Positions 32,934 to 62,641 of a DNA stretch of 64,000 nucleotides are shown here, piece by piece. Position 1 is the stretch's first letter; every line of letters starts with the position of its first letter. The notes beneath the pieces were generated by a model, which saw only the letters and a list, made by a program, of their open reading frames with translations, ran no database searches and was not told the origin of the DNA. The stretch lies in contig DASRBN010000004.1 of assembly GCA_035653615.1 (NCBI GenBank), positions 1 to 64,000 of the forward strand, given 5' to 3'. The position numbers and the translations under genes are program-made. This stretch comes from Ktedonobacteraceae bacterium. Lineage in GTDB: Bacteria; Chloroflexota; Ktedonobacteria; Ktedonobacterales; Ktedonobacteraceae.

Positions 32934-34358
32934 ATGAGCAATCCTTTTTCCTCTGGTTACACATCGTTGCAAGAAGAGATTCAAGTAGAGAAGCTGCCCG
33001 TCGAAGGATGCATTCCCGCGTGGCTTTCCGGTTCATTGTTGCGCAATGGCCCCGCGAAGTTCGAGGTCGGCTCCGAAGAGGTCTGGCACTGGTTCGATGG
33101 ATTAGCTATGCTGCACCGCTTCTCATTTCAGAACGGTAACGTGTCATACGCGAACAAATTTGTGCGCAGCCAGGCTTATGCGACCGCGATGCAGGAGAAG
33201 CGCCTGACATACGCCATGTTTGCTGCCGACCCCTGCAAGGCGCTGTTCCGGCACGCCATGACCGAGATGATCAACCCCAATGTGAGCATTCAGCAGGTAG
33301 CAGGAGAATTTCTTGCGATGACGGAAGCTCCATTGCCGATTGCCTTTGATCCCCATACGCTCGAGACGCTGGGCATTATTCATTATAACGACCAGGTCAG
33401 TGGTCATTATGGATCGGCTCATCCACATTACGACCGCGCCGGAAAGATGACCATCAGTTACCTGACCGAATTCGGCATGCAGAGTATGGTGAAGGTCTTC
33501 AGCATCGCGGATGGAGATGGGCGCAACCGCAAGCTGATTGGCGCTTATCCCACCCTGGAACCGTCGTATATCCATTCCTTCAGCATCACCGAGCATTACA
33601 TTGTGCTGGCCGAATATCCATTCCGCGTCATGCCCCTCGAAATGCTCAGCGGGCAAAAGGCCTTCATCCAGTACTTCACCTGGCGACCTCAAGAACCCGC
33701 GCTGTTTATCGTCATGAGCAGGCAGGATGGCAGCATTGTTGGCAGGTACGAGAGCGAAGCCTTCTTCTCATTCCACCATATCAATGCCTTCGAGCGCGCC
33801 GGAGAAATCGTACTTGACCTTTCAGCATACCCCGATGCCGCGATTATTGAGGAGACCAACCTGTCCAATCTGAGGGATGGGACGGGGGCAGAAAAACGGA
33901 GCGCGCGCAGCGAGTTCCGGCGGTATCGCCTGCCGCTGAGCGTCTCATCGGCCATTGCCACGTATGAGCGCATAAGCGGGCAGGAGATTGAAATGCCAAC
34001 CATCAACTATACCCATTCCAACAGCCACGATTACAGTGCTGCCTACGGCGTCAGTACGGCCAGGGAAGCGCCACTAACCCTGGCCCACCAGCTCGTGCGC
34101 GTTGACATACCCACAAACGCTACAAAAACCTGGGCGCAGGATGGATGCTATCCTGGAGAACCCGTCTTTGCTCAAGCTCCTCAAGCCCGTGGAGAAGATG
34201 ATGGCGTTGTTCTCTCAGTCGTCTTGAATGCCTACAAGGGCAATTCATTCCTGCTGGTGCTGGACGCGCATACATTCGAGGAACTTGGGCGAGCTGAAGT
34301 GCCGCATCACATCCCGCTCGGCCTTCATGGGCAATATTTCCCAGGCCTTGTGATTTGA
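32934..34358 (+). CDS. Carotenoid cleavage oxygenase family protein
   Basis: A 474-residue RPE65/ACO-type protein. All four iron-ligand histidines of the seven-bladed propeller are present: H163 (SAHPHYD), H214 (YIHSFSIT), H281 or H282 (FFSFHHINAFE) and H465 (GLHGQYFPG). These enzymes cleave a carbon-carbon double bond of carotenoids, apocarotenoids or stilbenoids with O2. No carotenoid biosynthesis gene lies nearby, so the substrate may be scavenged or the pathway is elsewhere. ATG 32934 has AAAGAAAGAGTAG upstream, a modest ribosome site. Confidence 0.93.
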   Translation: MSNPFSSGYTSLQEEIQVEKLPVEGCIPAWLSGSLLRNGPAKFEVGSEEVWHWFDGLAMLHRFSFQNGNVSYANKFVRSQAYATAMQEKRLTYAMFAADPCKALFRHAMTEMINPNVSIQQVAGEFLAMTEAPLPIAFDPHTLETLGIIHYNDQVSGHYGSAHPHYDRAGKMTISYLTEFGMQSMVKVFSIADGDGRNRKLIGAYPTLEPSYIHSFSITEHYIVLAEYPFRVMPLEMLSGQKAFIQYFTWRPQEPALFIVMSRQDGSIVGRYESEAFFSFHHINAFERAGEIVLDLSAYPDAAIIEETNLSNLRDGTGAEKRSARSEFRRYRLPLSVSSAIATYERISGQEIEMPTINYTHSNSHDYSAAYGVSTAREAPLTLAHQLVRVDIPTNATKTWAQDGCYPGEPVFAQAPQARGEDDGVVLSVVLNAYKGNSFLLVLDAHTFEELGRAEVPHHIPLGLHGQYFPGLVI

Positions 34359-42268: not shown

Positions 42269-44176
42269 ATGGTGATATCCCTGCTTACTGAGAACGAGCA
42301 ACGGCTTCTGGCCGCCTGGAACGATACCTCCCAGGACTATGCGAGAGACGCCTGCATTCCACAATTAATCGCGAGACAGGCCTCGATTCGCCCGCGAGCA
42401 ATAGCGCTTGTAGCGGACGGCGAGGTGGTGACATACGAACAACTTAACCGGCGGGCTAACCGGCTGGCGCATCACCTGCAATCGCTGGGAGTGGGTAGCG
42501 GTTCGGGATATCCGTATGTGGGATGTTACCTGGAGCGCTCCATAGACCTGGTGGTGGCATTGCTCGCTATTCTTAAGGCTGGCGCTGCCTATGTGCCACT
42601 GGACCCGGCTTATCCGTCCGAGCGAGTTGCGTTCATGCTGGCAGATGCCAATGTGCCTGTGCTGGTGACAAAAGCAAGCCTCGCTGGCCGCCTGGCAAAC
42701 TATCATGCTCAGATCGTGCGCGTTGACGCGGATGCAGCGCTGCTAGCACAGCAAAGCGAGGTCGATCCCCCCGCGCTTGCCACCGTCGATGACCTGGCTT
42801 ACGTCATTTATACATCTGGCTCTACGGGGCGTCCCAAGGGCGTGCAGATCACGCACGATAACCTGCTCAACATGATATACTGGCACCAGCGCGCCTTCGC
42901 CGTAACCCTTGCTGATCGTGCCACCCAGCTTACCAGCCCGGCTTTTGATGCCACTGGCTGGGAACTCTGGCCGTATTTAACCATTGGCGCAAGCGTTTAT
43001 CTACCGGACGAGGAGACCCGTGTTTCACCCGCGCGCTTGCGCGACTGGCTGCTTGGAAATCGCATTACGATCTCTTTCTTGCCGACCGCGCTTGCCGAAC
43101 ACATTTTGACGCTGGAGTGGCCTTCCCAGGCGCCGTTGCGCTTCCTCCTTACAGGGGCCGACAGGTTGCGCCACTACCCACCGGCTCATTTGCCTTTCAC
43201 CTTGATCAATAACTACGGTCCCTCGGAGGCCACCGTACTCGCGACCTCTGGCGAGGTTCTTGCATCGGACGCCTGTGATGAGCCGCCGACTATCGGTCGT
43301 CCCATCGCCAATACTCACATCTACCTGCTGGACGAGCAACTACGGCAGGTTCCAATTGGCGAGCCTGGAGAAATCTACATTGGTGGAGCAGGCGTAGGCA
43401 AGGGCTATCTCAACCGGCCAGAGCTGACAGAAGAGCGCTTTCTTCCCGACCCATTCCGCAAGGAAACCGGGGCGCGCATGTACAAAACCGGCGACCTGGG
43501 GCGTTTCTTGCCCGATGGCCGCATCGCTTTTCTCGGGCGCGCCGACGATCAAATCAAACTGCGTGGATTTCGCATTGAACCGGAAGAAATTATCGCGGTT
43601 CTCAATGCTCACCCGGCTATTGAGACGAGCGTCGTGGTGGCACGCGCAGAGCAGGGTAATCCAGATGAAAAGCGCCTGGTGGCCTACCTTGTACTGGCGC
43701 CAGGAGTCGATATAACGGTAGACGCTTTGCGCGCAATGCTGGCAGAACGCCTGCCGGAGTATATGATTCCGGCGACCTTTGTCCGCCTGAATACGCTGCC
43801 GATCACCCCCAATGGCAAAATCGACCGTCATGCCCTGCCCGCGCCGGATGCCTCAAATACGCTGCAAGATGAGCAAGGGATTGTTTTGCCCACGACGCCA
43901 ATGGAAGAGCACGTGGCAGCGATTGTCTCTTCTCTTTTAGGGCTGGAGCAGGTCAGTATCGATGATAACTTCTTCATGCTGGGTGGGCATTCCCTGCTGG
44001 GCACGCAGGTTATCGCGCGCATCGCCAGCACGTTTGATGTTGAGCTGACGCTGCGCAGCCTGTTCGAGGCTCCGACGGTAAGGCAACTCTCGGCATTGAT
44101 CGAAAGACGAATTCTGGCCCGGTTGGAGTCGATGAGCGACGAAGAGGCCCTGCAACTCCTGGCGCGGAAGGGATGA
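42269..44176 (+). CDS. Free-standing NRPS adenylation-PCP didomain
   Basis: A 635-residue protein with an adenylation domain (about 30-520) and a peptidyl carrier domain (about 535-610), and no condensation or thioesterase domain. Core motifs: A3 YTSGSTGRPKGV, A4 FDATGWE, A5 NNYGPSEAT, A7/A8 YKTGDLGRF and KLRGFRIEPEEI, A10 NGKID. The carrier serine is S575 in LGGHSLL. Aligned by eye to GrsA, the pocket residues read D-A-W-F-L-G-N-V-L-K, one change from the published leucine code DAWFLGNVVK. The first 35 residues look like a condensation-adenylation linker, implying descent from a larger synthetase. The P450 starts 4 nt after its stop. Expected role: load leucine or a similar residue on the carrier for modification. 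Confidence 0.93.
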   Translation: MVISLLTENEQRLLAAWNDTSQDYARDACIPQLIARQASIRPRAIALVADGEVVTYEQLNRRANRLAHHLQSLGVGSGSGYPYVGCYLERSIDLVVALLAILKAGAAYVPLDPAYPSERVAFMLADANVPVLVTKASLAGRLANYHAQIVRVDADAALLAQQSEVDPPALATVDDLAYVIYTSGSTGRPKGVQITHDNLLNMIYWHQRAFAVTLADRATQLTSPAFDATGWELWPYLTIGASVYLPDEETRVSPARLRDWLLGNRITISFLPTALAEHILTLEWPSQAPLRFLLTGADRLRHYPPAHLPFTLINNYGPSEATVLATSGEVLASDACDEPPTIGRPIANTHIYLLDEQLRQVPIGEPGEIYIGGAGVGKGYLNRPELTEERFLPDPFRKETGARMYKTGDLGRFLPDGRIAFLGRADDQIKLRGFRIEPEEIIAVLNAHPAIETSVVVARAEQGNPDEKRLVAYLVLAPGVDITVDALRAMLAERLPEYMIPATFVRLNTLPITPNGKIDRHALPAPDASNTLQDEQGIVLPTTPMEEHVAAIVSSLLGLEQVSIDDNFFMLGGHSLLGTQVIARIASTFDVELTLRSLFEAPTVRQLSALIERRILARLESMSDEEALQLLARKG

Positions 44177-44180
44177 TACT

Positions 44181-45437
44181 ATGACAACGCACGCGCAAAC
44201 GTTCCCGCCAGGAGAGAACAAGGCCGGTGATCCCAGCTTGAGCCTTTTTCATTTGCTCGATCCCGAAGTGCTTGCCAACCCGTATCCGTTGTATCATCGC
44301 CTGCGCAACGAGGACCCCGTTCATTGGGATCCTTTTCTGCATGCCTGGGTGGTGACACGCTACGCGGACGTAATTAACGTCTTCCAGCACTTTTCCGCGA
44401 AACGCACGCCGACGCCGGAACAATTAACTGCCCTGGGCCTATCAGCTTTAACTCCGCTGGCGCAGGTAATGGTACGCCAGATGCTCTTTCTTGATCCCCC
44501 TGAACACGGGCGCGTGCGCGGCCTGGCGGCGAAGGCATTTACACCTCGCCGGGTAGAACTCCTGCGCTCGCATATCCAGGATATTACCAATAACTTGCTG
44601 GATGCGATACTGGCAAAAGGCACAGGGCAGATGGACGTAATGTCTGAACTCGCCATCCCGCTGCCTGCTATCGTTACCGCGGAATTGCTCGGCTTACCCA
44701 CTTCCGACTGGAAGCAGCTCACGAAGTGGTCGAGCGACTTCGCCATGGTGCTGGGCAATTTCCAGCACAACCCGGATCATGCATCGCGCGTCTTACGTAG
44801 CCTCGAGGAGATGCTGGTCTACTTCCGGGCAGCCGTGCGAGACCATCGCGACCATCCACGTGAAGGGCTGATCAGCGCCCTATTGAATGCTGAAATAGAT
44901 GGCGACCGGCTATCAGAGGAAGAAGTGGTTGCTAACGTTATCGTGACTATGGTTGGCGGCCAGGAGACAACGACAAACCTGATCGGCAATGGTGTCCTTA
45001 CCCTGTTGCGGCAGCAGGATCAATTGGAGCGCCTGCGAGCAAACCTTTCGCTCATTCCATCAGCAGTCGAGGAACTGCTGCGCTACGAAAGTCCCAGCCA
45101 GCACACGGCACGGCTCGCGCCCGGTGATGTAGAGCTGGGTGGGAAGTTGATTCGCAAACGCCAGGCCGTGATCGCCGTGATGGGCGCGGCCAATCGCGAC
45201 CCGGAGCGCTTCCCCGACCCCGACCGGCTCGACCTGGCACGTCAGGACAATAGGCACGTCGCGTTTGCCTGGGCCAGCCATTTCTGCTTCGGGGCACCGC
45301 TGGCACGCATCGAGGGTCAAATCGCCTTCGATACACTATTGAGACGTATGCCCAACCTGCAACTGCTGCCTGGGCCGATTACATGGAGAGAAAATCTTGG
45401 GTTGCGCGGTTTGACTGCCCTGCATGTCACGTTTTAG
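44181..45437 (+). CDS. Cytochrome P450 of the NRPS cluster
   Basis: A 418-residue P450. Present are the I-helix motif GGQETT (259-264, Gln in place of the usual His or Asp partner), ExxR (E298-R301) and the heme thiolate C369. The heme loop reads FAWASHFCFG, so both glycines of the FGxGxHxCxG consensus are alanines, which is unusual. It is translationally tied to the A-PCP gene (4-nt gap). By analogy with A-PCP/P450 pairs such as NovH/NovI and NikP1/NikQ it probably hydroxylates the beta-carbon of a carrier-bound amino acid; that is inference. A P450 acting on a free substrate cannot be excluded. Confidence 0.92.
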   Translation: MTTHAQTFPPGENKAGDPSLSLFHLLDPEVLANPYPLYHRLRNEDPVHWDPFLHAWVVTRYADVINVFQHFSAKRTPTPEQLTALGLSALTPLAQVMVRQMLFLDPPEHGRVRGLAAKAFTPRRVELLRSHIQDITNNLLDAILAKGTGQMDVMSELAIPLPAIVTAELLGLPTSDWKQLTKWSSDFAMVLGNFQHNPDHASRVLRSLEEMLVYFRAAVRDHRDHPREGLISALLNAEIDGDRLSEEEVVANVIVTMVGGQETTTNLIGNGVLTLLRQQDQLERLRANLSLIPSAVEELLRYESPSQHTARLAPGDVELGGKLIRKRQAVIAVMGAANRDPERFPDPDRLDLARQDNRHVAFAWASHFCFGAPLARIEGQIAFDTLLRRMPNLQLLPGPITWRENLGLRGLTALHVTF

Positions 45438-45460
45438 CGCTGCCAGTTTATCCCTGCCAC

Positions 45461-45489
45461 TTGTGTTCGCGGTGGTCCGGCTGTATACT
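45461..45489 (+). promoter_or_regulatory. Internal promoter before the PPTase gene
   Basis: TTGTGT (45461-45466), 17-nt spacer, TATACT (45484-45489). The predicted start near 45496 lies 44 nt before the PPTase start codon, so the last genes of the cluster may be expressed independently of the A-PCP/P450 pair. Confidence 0.5.
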
Positions 45490-45539
45490 GGAGAAAATGT
45501 TGAGGGCGCAGTCAAGTATAACACCACGAGAGCTAGAGA

Positions 45540-46289
45540 ATGCAGGCACCAGTATCCCCCTGGGACACCTCACCAGGGATGCTATTATTGAATCAGGAAG
45601 AAGTCCACGTATGGCGCGCCTGGCTAGACCTGCCACAGCCAAAAATAGAGGTGCTTGAGCCGACGTTGAGTGATGATGAGCGCATACGAGCGCGACGATT
45701 TCACTTTGCCAGAGATCGTATACACTTTATCGCGGCCCGCGGCCAACTGAGAGCAATAGTGGGGCGTTACCTCGCCAGGGAGCCGCAGTCACTCAGCTTT
45801 ACGTATAATGCCTATGGCAAACCATCGCTTGCCGGGATATCCAGAGACAAAGAACTCTCTTTCAATATGTCACACGCGGGGAACATAGCTCTTCTCGCAA
45901 TTGCGCGCAATCCTGTCCTTGGCATCGATATTGAATATATTCAGAGGCAGATGGAATGGGAATCAATCGCCGAACGTTTCTTTTCTCCTTACGAAGTTCG
46001 CGTGCTGAAGGCCGTTCCCCCCGCTATGCGGCACATCGCTTTTTTCAACTGCTGGACACGCAAAGAGGCCTATATCAAGGCCCGAGGTATGGGTCTGTCG
46101 CTGGCGCTGGATTCGTTCGATGTCTCGCTGGCGCCTGGAGAGCCGGCGAGGTTGCTCAACATCCGAGAAGAGGGCCAGGATAGCGCGAACTGGTCGCTTT
46201 ACGAGTTATATCCTGGCGACGATTACATTGCCGCTCTCGCCGTCGAGGGGCATGTTTCCTCGTTAAAGTGCTGGCAATGCGTCGTGTGA
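45540..46289 (+). CDS. Sfp-type 4'-phosphopantetheinyl transferase
   Basis: A 249-residue Sfp-class enzyme that moves phosphopantetheine from CoA to carrier-protein serines. Conserved motifs: KPSLAG and FNMSHAGN (the PPT-1 region), LGIDIEYI with the Mg-binding aspartates, and the signature FFNCWTRKEAYIKARGMGL. Its place 102 nt after the P450 suggests that it activates S575 of the A-PCP protein. ATG 45540 follows a GAGAGCTAGAG stretch. An internal promoter precedes it. Sfp-type enzymes are often broad, so it may also serve other carrier proteins of the cell. Confidence 0.93.
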   Translation: MQAPVSPWDTSPGMLLLNQEEVHVWRAWLDLPQPKIEVLEPTLSDDERIRARRFHFARDRIHFIAARGQLRAIVGRYLAREPQSLSFTYNAYGKPSLAGISRDKELSFNMSHAGNIALLAIARNPVLGIDIEYIQRQMEWESIAERFFSPYEVRVLKAVPPAMRHIAFFNCWTRKEAYIKARGMGLSLALDSFDVSLAPGEPARLLNIREEGQDSANWSLYELYPGDDYIAALAVEGHVSSLKCWQCVV

Positions 46290-46387
46290 TAATTTCCACC
46301 CCAGTTTCTGCTATAATGCATAATGCAGAGGCAGCATTTAAGGCTATTTTCATTTCACTACGCTATTTTCAGAAAGGCAGCAGGCTC

Positions 46388-47362
46388 ATGAAAGCAGTGC
46401 TATGTAAAGTCTATGGCCCCCCGGAAAGCCTGGTCATCGAGGATATCGAAGCGCCACGACCCAGACGAGGGCAGGTAGTGGTCGCGGTTAAGGCGTGTGG
46501 CGTCAATTTCCCGGATACGCTGATTATCCAGGGGAAGTACCAGTTCAAGCCGCCGATGCCTTTTACGCCGGGTGGCGAGGTCGCGGGTATCGTGAAAGAG
46601 GTAGGCGAAGAGGTAGATACGGTCAGGGTTGGGGACAGGGTAATCGGTTTTACCAGCTGGGGTGGCTTTGCCGAAGAGGTGGCCGTCGATGCCCATGCGA
46701 TCATCCCCATCCCCGATTCGATGGATTTCAACACGGCAGCCGCCTTCTATATGACCTATGGAACATCACATTACGCGCTAAAAGATCGCGGGCAGCTGCG
46801 AGCAGGTGAGACCTTACTTGTGCTGGGCGCGGCAGGCGGGGTGGGACTCGCGGCAGTACAGATCGGGAAGGCAATGGGGGCACGCGTAATTGCCGCCGCT
46901 TCGACTGACGCGAAACTTGAACTATGCAGGCAGCAGGGAGCCGACGAAGTGATCAATTATGTAACCGGGGACCTCAAGACGCGTATCAAGGATCTCAGCG
47001 CGGGTAATGGCGTTGATGTGATTCTCGACCCGGTTGGTGGTGATTACTCGGAACCCGCTTTGCGTGGCATGGCGTGGGGAGGACGCTTTCTGGTCGTTGG
47101 CTTCACGGCGGGAGAAATCCCGCGCATACCGCTCAATTTGACGCTGCTCAAAAGCTGCTCCATTGTAGGTGTTTTCTGGGGGCCTTTCACGATGCGCGAG
47201 CCGCGGCGCAACCGGGAGTATGTACGGGAATTGCTCGCCTGGTACGAAGAGGGAAAAATCCGGCCCGTGGTGTCCGCGGCTTATCCTCTTCCGAAGGTGG
47301 CGGATGCGCTGAACGATATGATGCAGCGAAAGGTGACGGGGAAGGTGGTGGTGCTGCCCTGA
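46388..47362 (+). CDS. NADPH:quinone oxidoreductase-type MDR protein
   Basis: A 324-residue zinc-free medium-chain reductase. The substrate domain shows KACGVNFPDTLIIQGKYQFK, and the nucleotide site is VLGAAGGVGLAAVQIGKAMG, diagnostic of NADPH:quinone or enoyl reductase branches. ATG 46388 has AGAAAGGCAG upstream; an earlier in-frame start at 46268 lies inside the PPTase gene and is rejected. It follows the PPTase by 98 nt in the same direction and may belong to the cluster, or simply neighbour it. It is convergent with the kinase gene (16-nt gap). Confidence 0.92.
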   Translation: MKAVLCKVYGPPESLVIEDIEAPRPRRGQVVVAVKACGVNFPDTLIIQGKYQFKPPMPFTPGGEVAGIVKEVGEEVDTVRVGDRVIGFTSWGGFAEEVAVDAHAIIPIPDSMDFNTAAAFYMTYGTSHYALKDRGQLRAGETLLVLGAAGGVGLAAVQIGKAMGARVIAAASTDAKLELCRQQGADEVINYVTGDLKTRIKDLSAGNGVDVILDPVGGDYSEPALRGMAWGGRFLVVGFTAGEIPRIPLNLTLLKSCSIVGVFWGPFTMREPRRNREYVRELLAWYEEGKIRPVVSAAYPLPKVADALNDMMQRKVTGKVVVLP

Positions 47363-53752: not shown

Positions 53753-54106
53753 GGTAGCATCCCTCCAGTAATATCTCGTTTGTAGGAAAAGTATATACTG
53801 CTGACATTCGCCCTATCTCCCAGGATGCTCCCAATAAAGAGGAAGAGAGAAAGCAGGGGGAACAAGTGCGGATTATCCATCGTTTCTCACCATGTGCTGA
53901 AAGTCTTGCACGTGTCTTATACCGGTCTTATGATTTTTGGCTGAATTAAACAGGTGTACCCGTTTTTACTTATGTTGACATGTTTTGATATAATGGATGA
54001 GTCCTGACCTGGATGCGTAGGGGCATACCCTTGTGGTTGCCCTCCACATGACGGCACACGTTCCTCCAGTATGTGTTCGTAGTTGGTCCATGAAGGATAT
54101 GGTGAG
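53753..54106. other. Divergent region before the first STAND gene
   Basis: No gene is supported here. It contains a family-3 half element at 54017-54045 (GTAGGGGCATACCCTTGTGG) and a TTGACA-N8-TATAAT box listed separately. The sigma-factor promoter should lie near its left edge (GTATATACTG around 53791 on the complementary strand). Confidence 0.5.
53975..53994 (+). promoter_or_regulatory. TTGACA-N8-TATAAT box upstream of STAND gene A
   Basis: TTGACA (53975-53980) and TATAAT (53989-53994) are only 8 nt apart, too close for a classic -35/-10 pair. The same pair with a 7-nt gap precedes the paralogue at 59.04 kb. TATAAT is a likely -10; the TTGACA may be a shared operator. Confidence 0.45.
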
Positions 54107-57100
54107 ATGAATAGCAAGATCACATACCACCAGCAGGTCAGCTACTGCGGAAAACCGCGCTGCCGCAGGTGCCGTGAAGGAATAGGACATGGTCCTTACT
54201 GGTATGCCTATCAAACCGTCAATGGGCGAACGGTACGTACATATGTCGGCAAAGAACCCCCGGCTGAAATGCTATCCACACTCGACGAAGCCACAAATTC
54301 CAACCGCGGAGCGCAGGCCTCAGGACAGGGACAGGCCGCCGTCTCTATGGGTGCTGAACAACGCGGTAGCCTGGTACGTCTTTATGTCCTGGGTCAATTT
54401 CGTCTTGAGCATCGCAATGAGCAATACTGGCAAACCGTCAAGGATGCCGCGCTGCAACACCAACGCGTCCGTTCCTTGTTGACCTGCCTCATCAGCAATC
54501 CCGGACGCAAACTTGGGCGCGAGCAGGTGATGGATATGTTATGGCCAGACGCCGATTTCGATACTGCGTCCCATCGCCTCGACCGCGCCGTGCATAGCCT
54601 GCGCCAGCTTCTCGATCCGGGACGCAGCCGCCCGGCCATATCGAGCTTATTACTCACTGAACACCAAACTATTCAACTTGCCGGCCAGGTCCAATTGTGG
54701 ATTGATGCCGACGCTTTTGATGCCCTCGTTGCCCAGGCGCGTGCCTCAAATGATCCTGGCCAAGCCGAGCAATTGCTTGAAGAAGCACTGTTGCTCTACT
54801 GTGGAGATTTCTTACCCGACGAACGCAGTACTGACTGGATTCAATCGCGTCGCGAAGGTTTGCGGCGCAGTTGGGTCGGACTCATGCTCGAACTGGCCGA
54901 TCTACGTATCGCCCGCGAAGACCTCTCCAACGCCATCGACCTCTTAGACCGGCTACTCTCCGTCGATCCCACCAACGAGGCCGCGGTGCAACGCCTCATC
55001 GTCCTGCTTGCCCAGGCAGGAAGGCGCGGGGAAGCTATACGAGCCTACCAGCATTTCGCCGACGTGCTAAAAGAAGCATTCAACATCGCCCCGTTGCAAG
55101 AAACACGCCTCCTTTTCGACATGGTGCAGCGGGGAGAACATCCCGTAGACCGCCTGCACGCCCATACCAACGAGCAGCCATATCAAAAAGGGGCGAGCGC
55201 CGGCGATGAGAGACGTTCTTCAGATCAACAAAGCGATCTCGAAGAACAAAGCTACATGCACATTGGCCGCAGCCACCAGAGTCCCCTGGTTGGACGCGAG
55301 CAGGAATTGCAAACGCTGCGCCGGTTATTACGTATCACCGGCCAATCAACACGTATCAAGCTGGCGGGACAAAAGAAAACGGGCGGCGGAGCTCCTCTCT
55401 CGCTCGAAACACAAAAATTTGTGCAGTGTGTCTTACTCATGGGGGATGTAGGTATCGGCAAGACACGGTTAGCGGAAGAGACTGCGCGTGAGGCCAGGCG
55501 GCGCGGATGGTCTATCGCCTGGAGCCGGGCCTACGCCCAGGAAAGTAATGTCCCCTATCATTTGTGGACTGAAGCGCTGCGCAAAGCTATGGCCCATGGC
55601 ATCTGGCAACGGCATGAGATTACCAGGCGCCCGCTGATCTACCAATCGCTCGCCACACTGCTACCCGAACTACACGACCTTTTACCAGAAGCAGACCCTG
55701 TCACTATAATGCCGGTTGAGCAGGAACAAATTCGTCTGTGGGATGCCATGCGCTCCCTGCTCACCCTCGTCAGTGAAAGTATGCCTCTGCTGATTGTATT
55801 GGATGACCTGCAATGGGCCGACAGCAGCAGCTGCGAACTACTCAGCTACATCGTGCGACAACTGCGCGGCTATCCCATCTTCATCATAGGCACCTGCCGT
55901 GATAGAGAGCTTCCGGCAGATCATCCTTTGCGTTCCGTACTGATCGACCTGCAGCGCGAGCAGGCCATCGAGACTCTTTCTCTCCAGCCGCTCACAAATG
56001 AGCAAATCCGCACGCTCTTAGCATTTTTGCCAGAACCACTGGCGCAAGATATTTCGGCCCGCGCCGCAGGCAACCCTTTCTTTGCTGAGGAACTCGCACG
56101 CAGCGTCAAAATGTATCTCTCTTCATCTCTACTAGGCAGGGCGGGTGATGCAGGGAACCAGGCGCCCGCCTCAGATGCGCTATCTGAATTGCCCGGCACC
56201 ATCTCCGCCGTACTCGACCTGCGCATGGGTCGCATTAGTGAGGCCTGCCAGCGCCTGCTGGCGAGGGCGGCAGTATTAGGCGGCTCCTTCGAGTTTCACC
56301 ACATTCTCGCAATGGAGCTCAACGGCCCGGATGCAGACGAAGATACACTCCTCGACCTGTTAGAAGAAGCCTTGCAAGCAGGAATGCTGGTAGAAGAGGG
56401 CACAGGCACACACATCACCTATCATTTCTGGCATCCTATCCTGGTAAGTCACCTGTACGAAGGACTCTCGGCCAGCAGACGCCTCAGGCTACATCAAAGG
56501 GCCGCCGCGGTGTTACAGCAGCGGTATGCCGGGCGCGAAGAAGAGGGTGCGGCCAGCATCGTCTATCACCTCGTCAACGGTGGAGCCGAATCATCCAGCA
56601 TTGCCCACTACGCGCAGCTCGCTGGTGACCATGCCTTTGCCCTTTCAGCATATCCTGAAGCGGAACGCCATTACAAGCTTGCTATTGAGCATATGGGAAC
56701 AGGAACGCAGAATGCCGGCGCCAGCGAAATGCCCCAAATGGCCTACCTTTTTGAGCGACTTGGTGAGTGTAAAAGGTTTCGCGGAGACTTTACAGAGGCA
56801 CGTGCTTTCTATGCACAGGCGCTGGCAGTTCGCGAGCAACAGTCTTCAACTCTCCCTGCCGTCTCCGCAAGCGACGCTCAGTATGAGGCCCAGCTTCAGG
56901 CGCAGCTATGGTGCGAAATCGGCTGGACGTGGTACAACGAAGGCAACAATGCACAGGCTCTCCAATGCTACCAAAACGCGGAGCGCCTGCTGCGACAGGC
57001 AGAAGTGATGACTGGAGCTGTCTGGGCCAATCTTCGCCGCCAGCAGAGCTATGTAAAATGGCAGGAGGGCAACTACGATCAAGCGCGTCTGATGGCTCAA

Positions 57101-58327
57101 GAAGCCTTGCGTTTGTTTGAGGAAGTACTGGCGCGACAAAGTTCTACACCGAAGGATAACGCTCCTTCGACGCGCTCGAAACAGGTACCAGAGGGGAATC
57201 CTGTCGATCTTGGACGAACACATACATTACTGGCCGCCATAGCCGCCGCCCTGGGGAGCAGTTCTGAAGCGCTTACCCATCTCAATACTGCCCTGGCAAC
57301 CTTTGAACAGTATGATTGCCGGCGAGAGATTGCGATTGTTTGCGCAAACCTGGGTGATCTGTATTTAAGAAGAGCAGAACATGCGCAGGCGCAGGCCATG
57401 TTGCGCCGCTCTCTCAGCATGGCAGAGCAAATAGGCGATATTCCAAGCATGTCTGTGAGCCTGGGTAATCTTGGTGTGCTGGCGGCACGCCTTGGTGATC
57501 TCGCAGAGGCCGAAACCTGGTACAGGCGAGGGCTTACCCTGGCGCAGCAAACGAATGATCCGGTATATGTTAGTTTATTATGCAGCTATCTCGCCGCCGT
57601 TATTACAGATCAAGGCAGGCTTGATGAAGCCGGAGACTTACTGAAGCAGGCGTTAAGCATTGCCCGCGTGAAGCAGATTCCCCCATGTAGCGGCTTTGCC
57701 CTCGTCATGCTAGGAAATTTGCGCCTTGCGCAGGGCGACTCCATCAAGGAAGATCACCCTACATCCCGTACAGAAAAGCAGCGGGATGATAGACGCTTGC
57801 ATTATCTTATGCGCGCCAGAACATCCCTGCATCACGCGCTTGCCATTGAGGGAGTAGAGGCAGAGACAAGAACAGAGGGACAACTGCTACTGGCACAAGT
57901 TTGCTTATTATTGGGCGAAGTCGAGATCGCCTGGCAACAGGCCAGAACAGTTCTGCGAGAGGCGCGCCATTACGAACTCCTGTGGCTGGTTGCGCGCTCG
58001 CAGCGACTTCTTGGCGAGATTCTGGTGACCAGAGGCCAGCTGGATCAGGCAATGGAATATTTCTCACAGGCCTTTCAGGTTTTTCATGATAGCGGGATGC
58101 GTCTTGAGCGGGGGCGTACCCTGATGAGTCATGCCAGGGCTCTACTGAACCATCCTGCCCGTGAAGAAAACCATCAACAGGGCCTGAGTTGTCTGCAAGA
58201 GGCACAACGCATATTTGAGGAATGCAACGCAGCTAGCGATCTCAGAGCCGTCAATTCTGCTTTCTCTGAATATACTTCATCCACTTCCACATATCCTCGA
58301 AGGAAGACCAGAAAACGTCCTCGATAG
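54107..58327 (+). CDS. Giant BTAD/AAA/TPR transcription regulator (copy A)
   Basis: A 1406-residue STAND-class protein. Order: a short N-terminal Cys domain (C14, C19, C22; GIGHGPYWYAY), a winged-helix DNA-binding segment (about 87-190: RLYVLGQFRLE, GREQVMDMLWPDADFD), a BTAD helical domain (about 200-335), an AAA-type ATPase with Walker A GDVGIGKT (K452) and Walker B LLIVLDDLQWAD, and many TPR-like repeats to the end. It should bind DNA and activate transcription after an ATP-dependent, ligand-controlled assembly, as in SARP/LAL regulators. ATG 54107 follows GAAGGATATGGTGAG. A closely related gene lies 0.8 kb downstream. The signal and targets are unknown. Confidence 0.93.
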   Translation: MNSKITYHQQVSYCGKPRCRRCREGIGHGPYWYAYQTVNGRTVRTYVGKEPPAEMLSTLDEATNSNRGAQASGQGQAAVSMGAEQRGSLVRLYVLGQFRLEHRNEQYWQTVKDAALQHQRVRSLLTCLISNPGRKLGREQVMDMLWPDADFDTASHRLDRAVHSLRQLLDPGRSRPAISSLLLTEHQTIQLAGQVQLWIDADAFDALVAQARASNDPGQAEQLLEEALLLYCGDFLPDERSTDWIQSRREGLRRSWVGLMLELADLRIAREDLSNAIDLLDRLLSVDPTNEAAVQRLIVLLAQAGRRGEAIRAYQHFADVLKEAFNIAPLQETRLLFDMVQRGEHPVDRLHAHTNEQPYQKGASAGDERRSSDQQSDLEEQSYMHIGRSHQSPLVGREQELQTLRRLLRITGQSTRIKLAGQKKTGGGAPLSLETQKFVQCVLLMGDVGIGKTRLAEETAREARRRGWSIAWSRAYAQESNVPYHLWTEALRKAMAHGIWQRHEITRRPLIYQSLATLLPELHDLLPEADPVTIMPVEQEQIRLWDAMRSLLTLVSESMPLLIVLDDLQWADSSSCELLSYIVRQLRGYPIFIIGTCRDRELPADHPLRSVLIDLQREQAIETLSLQPLTNEQIRTLLAFLPEPLAQDISARAAGNPFFAEELARSVKMYLSSSLLGRAGDAGNQAPASDALSELPGTISAVLDLRMGRISEACQRLLARAAVLGGSFEFHHILAMELNGPDADEDTLLDLLEEALQAGMLVEEGTGTHITYHFWHPILVSHLYEGLSASRRLRLHQRAAAVLQQRYAGREEEGAASIVYHLVNGGAESSSIAHYAQLAGDHAFALSAYPEAERHYKLAIEHMGTGTQNAGASEMPQMAYLFERLGECKRFRGDFTEARAFYAQALAVREQQSSTLPAVSASDAQYEAQLQAQLWCEIGWTWYNEGNNAQALQCYQNAERLLRQAEVMTGAVWANLRRQQSYVKWQEGNYDQARLMAQEALRLFEEVLARQSSTPKDNAPSTRSKQVPEGNPVDLGRTHTLLAAIAAALGSSSEALTHLNTALATFEQYDCRREIAIVCANLGDLYLRRAEHAQAQAMLRRSLSMAEQIGDIPSMSVSLGNLGVLAARLGDLAEAETWYRRGLTLAQQTNDPVYVSLLCSYLAAVITDQGRLDEAGDLLKQALSIARVKQIPPCSGFALVMLGNLRLAQGDSIKEDHPTSRTEKQRDDRRLHYLMRARTSLHHALAIEGVEAETRTEGQLLLAQVCLLLGEVEIAWQQARTVLREARHYELLWLVARSQRLLGEILVTRGQLDQAMEYFSQAFQVFHDSGMRLERGRTLMSHARALLNHPAREENHQQGLSCLQEAQRIFEECNAASDLRAVNSAFSEYTSSTSTYPRRKTRKRPR

Positions 58328-58414
58328 GATGTAATCTGACCAGTTGGGCTTAATCATCAACATCCGAATGGCACGCCAGAGCCTATTTTCATTGCCATAT
58401 CAAAAATTTGCGAT

Positions 58415-58441
58415 GTCCCTCCTCTTTTTCAAAAGAGGGAC
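58415..58441 (+). terminator. Hairpin after STAND gene A
   Basis: GTCCCTCCTCTTTT and AAAAGAGGGAC can pair, leaving a bulge and a tiny loop. The T run lies inside the stem rather than after it, so this is only a possible terminator. Confidence 0.3.
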
Positions 58442-58618
58442 ACCCGCGCCTGGTAAGGTACACCGGCACCAACATATGGACAGGAACACACGAAATATAT
58501 GTCTTCAGAGACCATCTTTTTATCAAAAAACATGTATAAATGAAACAAGAAATATAAACAGGACGGTTGGTAGAACTGACCGCCCTACTCTCCTCAAAGA
58601 GGAAAGGAGCTACATCGC

Positions 58619-58774
58619 ATGGGTCTGGCACTCAACAAAAGGCAACTCCTGGTAATCGTCCTTGTCTTCCTATCATTGCTCGTGGCGGCCATTATTGTCG
58701 TTCATGGAGCCTTCCCCAGCTTATGGCAGCCGATTTTACATGCTAAACCACAAATAATTAATCGCTACGGTTAA
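58619..58774 (+). CDS. 51-residue single-span membrane peptide
   Basis: ATG 58619 has a strong ribosome site (GGAAAGGAGC) and opens a 51-codon frame ending TAA 58772-58774. The peptide begins MGLALNKRQLL, has one strongly hydrophobic helix (residues ~10-28, rich in Leu, Val and Ile) and a short tail (PSLWQPILHAKPQIINRYG). It would be an N-in single-span membrane protein. It sits between the two STAND paralogues, upstream of a long hairpin. No family is recognised, and expression is inferred only from the ribosome site and codon pattern. Confidence 0.55.
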   Translation: MGLALNKRQLLVIVLVFLSLLVAAIIVVHGAFPSLWQPILHAKPQIINRYG

Positions 58775-58916
58775 AACGACTGCGAATGTTCGTGCTCCGC
58801 GGTGGCGAGACCTATTAATCACTCGTACAGAGGGCCGATATCTACCGGTAGAATCACCTTTTGTTCATCCATAGAAAGGACGGCTATATGTCCCATTACG
58901 ATTAGAATGCATTGGC

Positions 58917-59012
58917 AAAAACAGGAGCCATCCCAGATTGAGGAACAGATAGATGGAGGGCGACTTTTCTCCCCTCCCCAACTCGTCAAGATTCGGGATG
59001 ACTCCTGTTTTT
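58917..59012 (+). ncRNA. Long hairpin with terminator-like 3' end
   Basis: Arms AAAAACAGGAGCCATCCC (58917-58934) and GGGATGACTCCTGTTTTT (58995-59012) pair over 18 bp with one mismatch around a 60-nt loop. The 3' arm runs into TTTTATTTTT, as in a Rho-independent terminator. It may be a terminator with a long loop, a small RNA or an attenuator ahead of STAND gene B. Confidence 0.4.
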
Positions 59013-59039
59013 ATTTTTCATAGATTGTTCGATTTGACG

Positions 59040-59058
59040 TTGACAGGTGCGATATAAT
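59040..59058 (+). promoter_or_regulatory. TTGACA-N7-TATAAT box upstream of STAND gene B
   Basis: TTGACA (59040-59045) and TATAAT (59053-59058), closely matching the arrangement before copy A, about 104 nt ahead of the start codon. Confidence 0.45.
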
Positions 59059-59161
59059 GACATCAGCTAGCTCATCACTACCATCCTGGCCAGCATGTGT
59101 ATCTTCTCGTCAGGTACAGAGCAGGACAGGCGCAAGGGCCGTCCCTACAGGAGACGCATCG

Positions 59162-62100
59162 ATGAACGGTAAGGTCACCTATCGCCAGCATGTGAGCTTT
59201 TGTGGTAAACCGAAATGCCGCAAATGCCGCGATGGGATTGGTCACGGCCCCTACTGGTACGCCTACCAGGTCATAGATGGGCATACCGTTCGCAGATATA
59301 TAGGGAAGCATCTCCCGGCAGAGGCAAAGATGAGCGAAAATCCCCTCGTCGAGCTTGATTCCCTACAACAGGTAGACCTGCATATTGCGCATGGGGCATT
59401 GCCTGAAGCCATCGACATCCTGGATCGCCTGCTGGCTATTGATCCTGCCAACGAGAAGGCAGTACAACGGCTGGTGCTGGCCCTGGCAAGGTTAAAACGG
59501 CGCGGAGAGGCATTGCAGGCCTACCAACGGCTCGCGTCCATATTACAAAAAAGTCACAATGCAGTTCCCTCGCCAGAGACACAGGATGTGTACAGGGCCG
59601 TGCTCCAGGGAGACGAAATAACGCTACCCCCTGCCAGCACGAAGGGCGACCATCATCCTCATCACATACAACGCCCCCTACCAGGATCATCACCGTCGCT
59701 TCCCCAGCCCTCGTCAAAAGAACCTGGAACAACGAAGCGCAAGGACTTCCTCTCCCAGAAATTTCCCCCTGCTTTCCACATTGGGCGTATCAACCAGAGC
59801 CAGCTGGTGGGACGCGACAGAGAACTGGCGGTATGCCGCCAGCTCCTCCTGATTCCCGAAGCGGTTTCTGTCCTCTCAAAATCGAATAGACAGGTTTTGG
59901 CAGAAAACCTGACGAGGATGAATGCCAGCGCGTCCGTTTCTTCCGCGCGGTTTATGGTGCTGATGGGAGAAGCCGGCATTGGTAAGACACGCCTGGCGGA
60001 AGAGGTCGCCCGCGAAGCCTTACAACGCGAATGGGCTGTGATTTGGAGCAATGCCTACGCCCAGGAGAGCGGCATTCCTTATCGTGTATGGACTGAAGCA
60101 TTACGCAAGCTGATAACTCAGGAACTCTGGCAAGAAGCCGGGGTATCTGCGCAAAAACAACTCTACCAACCACTCAAAGCGCTCCTACCAGAATTACAGG
60201 AGCTATTGCCACAGTCCGCCAGCCAGCGCTCGTCAAGCGCTTACAGCGCTTCATCACCCGAACAAGAGCAACTACAACTGCGCGAAGCTGTTTATGACCT
60301 GTTCACCACCATCAGCGCTCATAAGCCTCTCATGATCGTGCTGGATGATATACAATGGGCAGATAGAAGCAGTTGCGAACTGCTTGGCTACCTTGCTCGC
60401 CGCTTGCAAGGCCATGCCATCGCCGTACTGGCCACATGCCGCGACCAGGAGCTTTCAAGCTCGCATTCCTTGCGTTCCCTGTTTGCCCATATGCAACGCG
60501 AACATACCGTTGAGATGCTCCACGTCCAGCCACTCACCGACGCGCAAATTGGCATCCTCGTCTCCAATTTGCCACAAAAAACCGTGCAGCATATTCAAAT
60601 CCAGGCCGGTGGAAATCCTTTCTTCGCCGAAGAGTTAGCATCCTTCTTTCATACAGGAGCAGCAATTGGCGAGCATCAACCTCAGACGAAATCCGCTGAA
60701 ACCAGCTTACCGGCAACGATTATCGCTGCTCTCGACCAACGGCTCAATCGCCTCAGTGCGGCATGTTACCAACTCCTGAGTACAGCAGCCGTATTGGGCA
60801 GGTCTTTCGGGTTCCCTCTCATAGCCACGATTGAAGCAAAAAACACCGGCTACGACGAAGATGCCGTGCTCGATCTACTGGAAGAGGCGCTACAATCCGG
60901 CATACTGGCCGAGGAAGGCACCGGAACCCGTATCAGTTATTCTTTCTGGCACCCACTCTTCGCCACCCATCTGTATAACCGCCTTTCCTCCACAAAGCGC
61001 GCGCGGCTACACCGGCGAGCAGCAGAAGCGCTCCAACAAATCTATGCCGGGCGCGAACACGAACTGGCGGCCACCATCGTGCGGCACCTCGTGAACGGTG
61101 GAGCAGAGCCAGCGCGGATTGCGCACTATGCGGAGATGGCCGCGAACTATGCCTATAACCTCTCCGCCTATGCCGAGGCCGAACGATACTATCGCCTGGC
61201 GGTTGAGTACATCGAAAAAGACCACCTGGCAAGCGACGCTGCTACCAGCTTCGAGGCGCGATCTCGCCTGGCATTCCTCCTGGAACGGCAAGCCGAATGC
61301 ACGCGCATCCAGGGAGATTTCAAGCAAGCTCGCTCCCTGTTTGAACGTGTCCTCGAGACCCGCGCCTCCTTGCAAGAGAGCCAATCCATCTCTCCGGCTC
61401 CTCCAGGCCCTGTGCCATCGCCCCTTGACCCGGCGATGGAAGCGCAAATCCAGGCCCTATTATGGGGTGAAATTGGTTGGACATGGCGATACACGGGTGA
61501 TACCGCTCAAGCAAGGGCATGTTGCGAACGTGGTGAGCAGCTATTACGGGATGCCGGCATAAGCGCTGGACCCGCCTGGGCAAGGCTCCGCTTTCAGCAG
61601 GCAAGCCTCTCCTGGCAGCAGGGCCAGTATGAGGAAGCGCGCCATGCCATCGAGCAGGCTTTACACCTGTTTGAATCCACACCGCCACTCGCCACAGCAA
61701 AAGATGCAGACCTTGCATCACTGACCCGTACAAGGCGAACATTGTTGGGCGACCCCGTTGACCTTGGGCGCGCCTATGCCCTGCTGGGAGCTATCCTCAA
61801 CGCCACAGGGCAGCGCACAGAAGCCCTCGCCTCTATGGACAGGGCCCTCGCCATTTACCAGCAGAACAACCGGCAGCGCGAGATTGCCCATGTCTGCTGC
61901 AATATAGGCCACATCCATCTCAAAAAAGCGGAATACCAGCGCGCGGAAGCCTACTTGCGGCGCTCTCTCGACCTGGCAGAACGTAGCGGCGATACACCCC
62001 TCATCGCCGTCGTCTTCCACAATTTAGGAGAGTTGGCCGCCTCCGCCGGCAAACTACTGGAAGCGACGGCTCTTTACAAACGAAGCCTGGAACTGGCCCA

Positions 62101-62641
62101 ACAGTTCAACGACCGCGAATACCTCAGCCTGTGGAATGCCGACCTTGCAACCGTGCTGCGAGAGCAAGGTCACCTTGCCGAAGCCACCACGTGCGTAGGG
62201 CAGGCATTATCAACCGCTCGCGCCATACGCAATGCTCCATGCATTGGCCTGGCGCTCGTCGTATTGGGCGAACTGCGTATCGCGCAAGCCACAGTTGCAT
62301 CTCCGGCGCGCACTCCCCCCGACCAGGCCAGCGCTACCGCCGTGACAAAGCAACGCAACAAAAGGCCAACCACAGGCATTCCCCCGGTCGTATTGCTTGC
62401 CCGTGCCAGGGCCACCCTGCGCCACGCCCTCGCCCTGCCTGGATTAGAGGCCGAAACGCGAACCAGGGCGCAATTAGCCCTCGCCCATCTCGCCCTGCTC
62501 CTGCAAGATCGAGAAGCTGCCCGCCAACACGCGACACAGGCCATCGAGGAAGCAAATCATCACGAATTGATGGCTTTGCTCGCCCGTAGTCAACAACTCG
62601 TGCGCGCCCTGGCCAGGGATTCTTCGTTGCACTCAGAATGA
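59162..62641 (+). CDS. STAND/TPR paralogue lacking the DNA-binding domain (copy B)
   Basis: A 1159-residue paralogue of copy A. The N-terminal Cys domain is conserved (C14, C19, C22; GIGHGPYWYAY), but the frame jumps from about residue 55 straight into the last BTAD helices (PEAIDILDRLLAIDP). The winged helix and most of the BTAD, about 180 residues, are absent. Walker A is GEAGIGKT (K275), Walker B LMIVLDDIQWAD, followed by TPR-like repeats. ATG 59162 has AGGAG 8 nt upstream; a start at 59057 has no such site. The last residues (DSSLHSE) and the stop lie in a family-2 repeat. It may act as a partner or inhibitor of copy A, or bind targets via the Cys domain. Confidence 0.9.
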   Translation: MNGKVTYRQHVSFCGKPKCRKCRDGIGHGPYWYAYQVIDGHTVRRYIGKHLPAEAKMSENPLVELDSLQQVDLHIAHGALPEAIDILDRLLAIDPANEKAVQRLVLALARLKRRGEALQAYQRLASILQKSHNAVPSPETQDVYRAVLQGDEITLPPASTKGDHHPHHIQRPLPGSSPSLPQPSSKEPGTTKRKDFLSQKFPPAFHIGRINQSQLVGRDRELAVCRQLLLIPEAVSVLSKSNRQVLAENLTRMNASASVSSARFMVLMGEAGIGKTRLAEEVAREALQREWAVIWSNAYAQESGIPYRVWTEALRKLITQELWQEAGVSAQKQLYQPLKALLPELQELLPQSASQRSSSAYSASSPEQEQLQLREAVYDLFTTISAHKPLMIVLDDIQWADRSSCELLGYLARRLQGHAIAVLATCRDQELSSSHSLRSLFAHMQREHTVEMLHVQPLTDAQIGILVSNLPQKTVQHIQIQAGGNPFFAEELASFFHTGAAIGEHQPQTKSAETSLPATIIAALDQRLNRLSAACYQLLSTAAVLGRSFGFPLIATIEAKNTGYDEDAVLDLLEEALQSGILAEEGTGTRISYSFWHPLFATHLYNRLSSTKRARLHRRAAEALQQIYAGREHELAATIVRHLVNGGAEPARIAHYAEMAANYAYNLSAYAEAERYYRLAVEYIEKDHLASDAATSFEARSRLAFLLERQAECTRIQGDFKQARSLFERVLETRASLQESQSISPAPPGPVPSPLDPAMEAQIQALLWGEIGWTWRYTGDTAQARACCERGEQLLRDAGISAGPAWARLRFQQASLSWQQGQYEEARHAIEQALHLFESTPPLATAKDADLASLTRTRRTLLGDPVDLGRAYALLGAILNATGQRTEALASMDRALAIYQQNNRQREIAHVCCNIGHIHLKKAEYQRAEAYLRRSLDLAERSGDTPLIAVVFHNLGELAASAGKLLEATALYKRSLELAQQFNDREYLSLWNADLATVLREQGHLAEATTCVGQALSTARAIRNAPCIGLALVVLGELRIAQATVASPARTPPDQASATAVTKQRNKRPTTGIPPVVLLARARATLRHALALPGLEAETRTRAQLALAHLALLLQDREAARQHATQAIEEANHHELMALLARSQQLVRALARDSSLHSE

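Follow-up and report, generated by a model that had tools for sequence, protein, structure and literature searches.

We analysed a 64,000-nucleotide stretch of contig DASRBN010000004.1 from a soil bacterium of the Ktedonobacteraceae (hereafter the window; its source genome is G000), in which a gene for an adenylation-peptidyl carrier protein (A-PCP) didomain is followed by genes for a cytochrome P450 and a 4'-phosphopantetheinyl transferase (PPTase). From sequence comparisons we conclude that the A-PCP/P450 pair is a conserved initiation module of nonribosomal peptide synthetases (NRPSs). The evidence for such a starter module, in which a single P450 family accompanies a nearly invariant leucine code, is the conservation of the pair, its specificity codes, the condensation (C) domains found downstream of it and the correlation of distances between its two proteins.

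Conservation of the A-PCP/P450 pair across phyla

Scanning one genome per species, we identified 204 loci with the P450 and fetched 80 of them; all cross-phylum counts refer to these 80 loci. Most of the source genomes are metagenome-assembled, so binning errors are possible. The P450 is found at 65-80% identity in the 80 loci, which come from about eight phyla (Acidobacteriota, Chloroflexota, Rokubacteria, Dormibacterota, Verrucomicrobiota, Planctomycetota, Actinomycetota and a Roseomonas), and an A-PCP lies directly upstream of it in 73. The leucine code is kept in all 68 readable A-PCPs beside this P450 family: 66 read DAWFLGNV[V/L]K and two carry one further change (DAWFLGNVVK, 61; DAWFLGNVLK, 4; DAWFLGNVV?, DGWFLGNVVK and EAWFLGNVVK, one each). 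A C domain directly follows the pair in 52 of the 80 loci, P450-C-A-T-TE fusions included (T, thiolation; TE, thioesterase); an A-T unit without a C domain, followed in cis by C-A-T, is the arrangement of an NRPS loading module, for which G000 offers a candidate partner in trans. Elsewhere the P450 is fused to A-T-TE without a C domain (8/80 loci, Pfam-confirmed for L178) or precedes a discrete TE (4/80). The residue activated by the module after the pair varies widely.

The two proteins co-evolve: distances among the P450s and among their A-PCPs are correlated (Mantel r 0.76; 0 of 1000 permutations as high), and in the subset with C domains the correlation is 0.85 for P450 and A-PCP versus 0.72 for P450 and C domain. 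The P450 tree is mostly grouped by phylum, and a plasmid search for the P450 found only relatives below 60% identity. We tentatively suggest, at somewhat less than even odds, that the pair is an ancient oxidised-leucine starter unit of mostly uncultivated soil bacteria from about eight phyla, in which an invariant leucine A-PCP and a previously unnoticed P450 family cap many short peptides in cis, as fusions or in trans. We found no prior description of an oxidised-leucine starter pair in the open-access literature searched. What looked like an orphan trio of genes thereby gains the logic of a starter unit, which can be tested. In Acidobacteriota, Chloroflexota, Rokubacteria and other groups, NRPS lines that differ in other respects begin with this one P450 family, whose partner has a leucine code wherever it is readable, and the identity of the oxidised leucine would set the N-terminal residue of many uncharacterised soil peptides.

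Within the class Ktedonobacteria, the P450 is present at 73-81% identity in 15 of 47 genomes, with the next best match at or below 50%. Relatives of the A-PCP occur at 55-65% identity, and in 13 such loci a P450 73-81% identical to that of the window follows. The pair heads an NRPS operon in six Thermogemmatispora and two Dictyobacter-group genomes, and a discrete thioesterase-family gene follows the P450 in four Ktedonobacteria loci (L066, L068, L070 and L079). Several pairs in the class have no cis partner; those of G000 and of G030, a member of another family, have neither an NRPS operon nor a discrete TE downstream. Nearly all Ktedonobacteria pair A-PCPs end in the same type of C-terminal tail as the window's (LESMSDEEALQLLARKG), which is absent from the other G000 carriers inspected.

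Several variants of these loci were also observed. In L146, L149, L160, L165, L166, L171, L175, L184 and L192, the P450 forms the N-terminal part of a fusion with a C-A-T-TE NRPS (~1590-1830 aa), and the fusion in L165 adjoins sugar-transferase and sulfotransferase genes. Acidobacterial P450-A-T-TE fusions with no C domain after the leucine A-PCP are found in L178 (L178:9983-13969), L152, L153, L158, L172, L176 and L186; they have a ~466-aa neighbour with no Pfam match. L148, L156, L162 and L170 have upstream C-A-T modules whose code (VDWxxxIADK) resembles that for beta-alanine, with a pyridoxal-dependent decarboxylase after the cluster in L148. An FkbM-type methyltransferase (MT) is inserted between A and PCP of the pair's A-PCP at L079:6782-9496, and a rearranged Ktedonosporobacter locus carries a separate MT-PCP piece (L201:11181-12752).

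Predicted leucine specificity of the adenylation domain

To read the specificity code of the A domain, we positioned its ten pocket residues by GrsA landmarks. Residues 227, 228, 231, 270, 294, 296, 315, 323, 324 and 517 spell DAWFLGNVLK, the same reading as in the initial annotation of this DNA, and match the Stachelhaus leucine code, DAWFLGNVVK, at nine of ten positions. Among solved structures, the best single-domain match is the A domain of McyB from microcystin synthetase (8hlk, 534 bits), which we take to be leucine-specific; unlike the window's A domain, it is embedded in a C-A module and has no P450. The code and its conservation strongly support the prediction of an A domain that activates L-leucine for loading onto its own PCP.

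Predicted chemistry of the P450

A discrete A-PCP adjoining a P450 is the layout of NovH/NovI and NikP1/NikQ, and the analogy to these systems drawn by the initial annotation holds for this leucine-type A-PCP and its P450. The pair shares with NikP1/NikQ(/NikP2), NovH/NovI, Qui18/Qui15(/Qui14) and BpsD/OxyD(/Bhp) a discrete A-PCP with an adjoining P450, in some cases a discrete TE and, for the pair by prediction, a carrier-bound amino acid as substrate. To our knowledge, all characterised A-PCP/P450 cassettes (NovI, NikQ, OxyD, Qui15 and P450sky) beta-hydroxylate. By analogy, the window's P450 most likely catalyses beta-hydroxylation of PCP-bound leucine, with beta-hydroxyleucine as the predicted product. 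The pair differs from the Nik, Nov, Qui and BpsD cassettes in its leucine-type code (His, Tyr or Trp in theirs), in normally heading a cis NRPS rather than supplying a free building block, in a P450 nearest BioI, PksS and PikC, and in having no MbtH gene beside it (the MbtH genes of G000 are on contigs C29 and C33). In echinomycin biosynthesis, Qui15 hydroxylates only Qui18-bound tryptophan in vitro (PMC3578932). For polyoxypeptin, a PCP, a P450 and a TE (PlyQ/PlyR/PlyS) are proposed to provide 3-hydroxyleucine (PMC3943440). PlyR is a relative of NikQ (37%) from Streptomyces, and its product is a free building block that is re-activated, in contrast to a starter module.

The closest solved structures to the P450 are BioI, PksS and PikC, to which it appears nearer in sequence than to known carrier-bound beta-hydroxylases, and the PDB entries of P450sky and OxyD are not among its best 60 structure matches; an AlphaFold model of the P450 (mean predicted local distance difference test score 61) was too poor for a structure search. 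BioI (CYP107H, PDB 3ejb), the closest (E 3.6e-79; profile 6.7e-100), acts on carrier-bound acyl chains, but its substrate is a fatty acyl-ACP, its reaction is C-C cleavage and it has no A-PCP partner. With these neighbours, other positions or reactions on carrier-bound leucine are therefore possible, such as gamma or delta hydroxylation, desaturation or BioI-like C-C cleavage. Any of these would be compatible with the model of a detached starter module proposed below, and we judge them together somewhat unlikely, given the beta-hydroxylation by the characterised cassettes named above.

A candidate partner in trans on contig C35

As the initial annotation had noted, C and TE domains are absent from the part of the window around the three genes. 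G000 holds six C domains at three sites. Among these, an NRPS line on contig C35 (C-A-T / C-A-T-TE, with codes DSALIAEVWK and DALWLGGTFK, the latter Val-like) begins with a C domain, and no cis loader was found on its strand. When this first C domain was searched in 47 genomes, setting aside its self-match and the second C domains of both trans lines, the best matches were the first C domain of an NRPS in G030 (63%) and the eight C domains that immediately follow the pair (53-56%); in genomes lacking the pair, no score exceeded 437 bits. A tree of 101 C domains places it outside the clade (99% Shimodaira-Hasegawa-like approximate likelihood ratio test) holding the other five G000 C domains. 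Its motif, HHIIFDG, is the commonest among pair-following C domains and occurs in none of the other G000 C domains with a readable motif, and the N-terminus of the C35 NRPS, LSEVKRALLAQYL, resembles those of cis partners and discrete TEs. Because of the similarity search, the tree, the motif and the N-terminus, we assign this C domain to the pair-following type.

G030 provides a parallel, with an orphan pair (L067) and an NRPS of three modules (L081), the first C domain of which likewise belongs to the pair-following type. Among orphan pairs, those without a TE (G000 and G030) are also those with a loader-less NRPS. The C35 TE shares 47% identity with the discrete TE beside pairs and is its only homologue in G000. 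From these comparisons, the C35 line is probably the partner of the detached pair, and it is the best-supported candidate; with it as partner, release would therefore fall to the C35 TE. The initial annotation had pictured a minimal cluster that might make a building block or small signal. A self-contained cluster making a small signal is not supported, since the pair heads NRPS operons in 52 of 80 relatives and the C35 NRPS, which has no loader, starts with a C domain of the matching type. It had also allowed that a complete NRPS elsewhere in the genome, using the module in trans, would overturn its interpretation; the C35 NRPS nearly fits this description, with the trans use itself being predicted.

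We propose a model in which the A domain would activate L-leucine and load it onto its own PCP, where the adjoining P450 would oxidise it, with the beta carbon as the likeliest site. The A-PCP may then use its C-terminal tail for docking in trans to the helix at the N-terminus of the C35 line, whose first C domain would join the oxidised leucine to the next residue, followed probably by valine, before the Cys-type TE releases the putative product, an oxidised Leu-X-Val-type tripeptide. The PPTase is predicted to prime the pair, the C35 line and other carriers genome-wide. Taken as a whole, a detached initiation module feeding oxidised leucine to the C35 line for release by its TE is the reading we favour, at moderately better than even odds. 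Trans pairing of this kind would let genome miners link split clusters.

Several observations weigh against this model. The window and the C35 line are on different contigs. The C35 NRPS might instead be loaded by a divergent A-PCP (678 aa) encoded ~0.65 kb away, although this protein has no MSDEEA-type tail and is followed by a fusion of serine hydroxymethyltransferase (SHMT) and GcvT. Another C-A-T of G000 (C35, ~248.9 kb) is likewise without an obvious loader. The pair statistics are not phylogenetically independent (six of the genomes are Thermogemmatispora), and the exact place of the C35 first C domain within Ktedonobacteria is a polytomy. NRPS proteins often carry the N-terminal helix motif, and the G000 module on contig C29 has a similar one.

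At L083:8633-14911 (G000:C35, ~268.5-274.8 kb), an A-PCP of unusual code (DIWVVTNDDK) precedes a 1057-aa SHMT-GcvT fusion and a nucleoside hydrolase; these genes may act on a carrier-bound amino acid by hydroxymethyl or one-carbon chemistry.

Thioesterases and alternative roles of the pair

The pair could instead be a building-block cassette, making free beta-hydroxyleucine or another oxidised leucine that is released by a stand-alone TE or slow hydrolysis, in the manner of the nikkomycin, echinomycin and polyoxypeptin precursors. The four Ktedonobacteria loci with a discrete TE are consistent with such a role, and precedents exist in Qui18/Qui15/Qui14 (PMC3578932) and in PlyR/PlyS for 3-hydroxyleucine (PMC3943440). 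However, no TE is found in or near the window cluster, the sole G000 homologue of the discrete TE is the TE domain of the C35 line, and pair-associated discrete TEs are partly degenerate, with a frameshift in L068:12828-13852 and the catalytic His replaced in L079:4443-5453 and L167:131-1216. We therefore consider this role unlikely.

A remnant of a dismantled NRPS operon, with nothing useful made or a product belonging to a pathway not yet recognised, would fit the recurrence of pairs without cis partners in the class and the decay of some TEs. We regard it as quite improbable, since all three open reading frames (ORFs) are undamaged and keep their core motifs (YTSGSTGRPKG, NNYGPSEAT and GGHSL in the A-PCP; ELLR, GGQETT and haem Cys369 in the P450; GIDIE and WTRKEAYIK in the PPTase). 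The P450 branch is of normal length in the P450 tree (0.17), and its differences from relatives at codon positions 1, 2 and 3 (about 0.17, 0.10 and 0.62) indicate that the frame is under purifying selection.

Cyclisation of beta-hydroxyleucine to a beta-lactone by a Cys-nucleophile TE, as in ObiF, is very unlikely: the discrete TEs and the C35 TE do carry GxCxG, and the ObiF and SulM TEs use Cys (PMC11298585), but we rejected this as a sign of beta-lactone formation because Cys TEs occur in the C35 and G030 NRPSs, both without a pair in cis, and many pair-headed lines carry Ser TEs, while the oxidised leucine of pair-headed lines would be N-terminal rather than C-terminal, so that no lactone would form at release.

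A general Sfp-type PPTase

The PPTase matches PF01648 (ACPS, 2.1e-20) and PF22624 and has the AASDHPPT-type N-terminal half and ~240-aa length of Sfp/HetI-type enzymes. Its score against the HetI model NF042922 (241 bits) is below the cut-off of 370, making it Sfp-like and not HetI itself. It is the sole Sfp-type PPTase of G000; a second ACPS match (contig C1, 167 aa) was judged AcpS-type by sequence. Of the three-gene set that the initial annotation had suggested tracing in related genomes, the A-PCP/P450 pair recurs, and in none of the other class genomes searched does the PPTase adjoin it. We therefore rejected the earlier idea of a private PPTase in favour of a general role, as the enzyme is the only one of its type in G000 and, within the class, lies beside the pair in G000 alone. 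The closest PPTase in the class (57%) adjoins the G030 NRPS in L081; a PPTase beside the pair in one genome and beside the NRPS in the other is as expected if pair and NRPS split from one cluster.

Organisation of the locus and neighbouring genes

ORFs and Pfam matches agree with the three genes first annotated (Table 1). The A-PCP stop codon and the P450 start are 4 nt apart, and ~100 nt separate the P450 from the PPTase. The A-PCP matches AMP-binding (2.7e-79), AMP-binding_C and PP-binding (2.2e-15), and the P450 matches p450 (2.9e-24). A promoter and terminator scan gave nothing above chance.

Table 1. Coordinates in the window of the A-PCP, P450 and PPTase genes and their features.
Feature	Position	Strand	Basis
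A-PCP didomain protein, 635 aa, leucine-type code DAWFLGNVLK	42269..44176	+	Pfam, pocket code
PCP (carrier) domain, GGHSL phosphopantetheine site, residues 549-611	43913..44101	+	PF00550
A-PCP C-terminal tail LESMSDEEALQLLARKG, probable donor docking helix	44123..44173	+	tail comparison
Cytochrome P450, 418 aa, proposed oxidation of PCP-bound leucine	44181..45437	+	PF00067
Haem Cys369 of P450	45285-45287	+	motif
Sfp/HetI-type 4'-phosphopantetheinyl transferase, 249 aa	45540..46289	+	PF01648, NF042922

No other natural-product biosynthesis genes are apparent in the surrounding window. The neighbours encode a xylulokinase, a GT9 glycosyltransferase, a quinone-oxidoreductase-like protein and a Ser/Thr kinase with WD40 repeats. 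The NADPH:quinone oxidoreductase-like gene (46268-47362) was dropped as a candidate pathway member, as it is not beside pairs elsewhere. Further away, the window contains an RPE65-family carotenoid oxygenase gene (32934-34358) and two large tandem BTAD/AAA_16/TPR regulators with an N-terminal DUF6788 (54083-62641).

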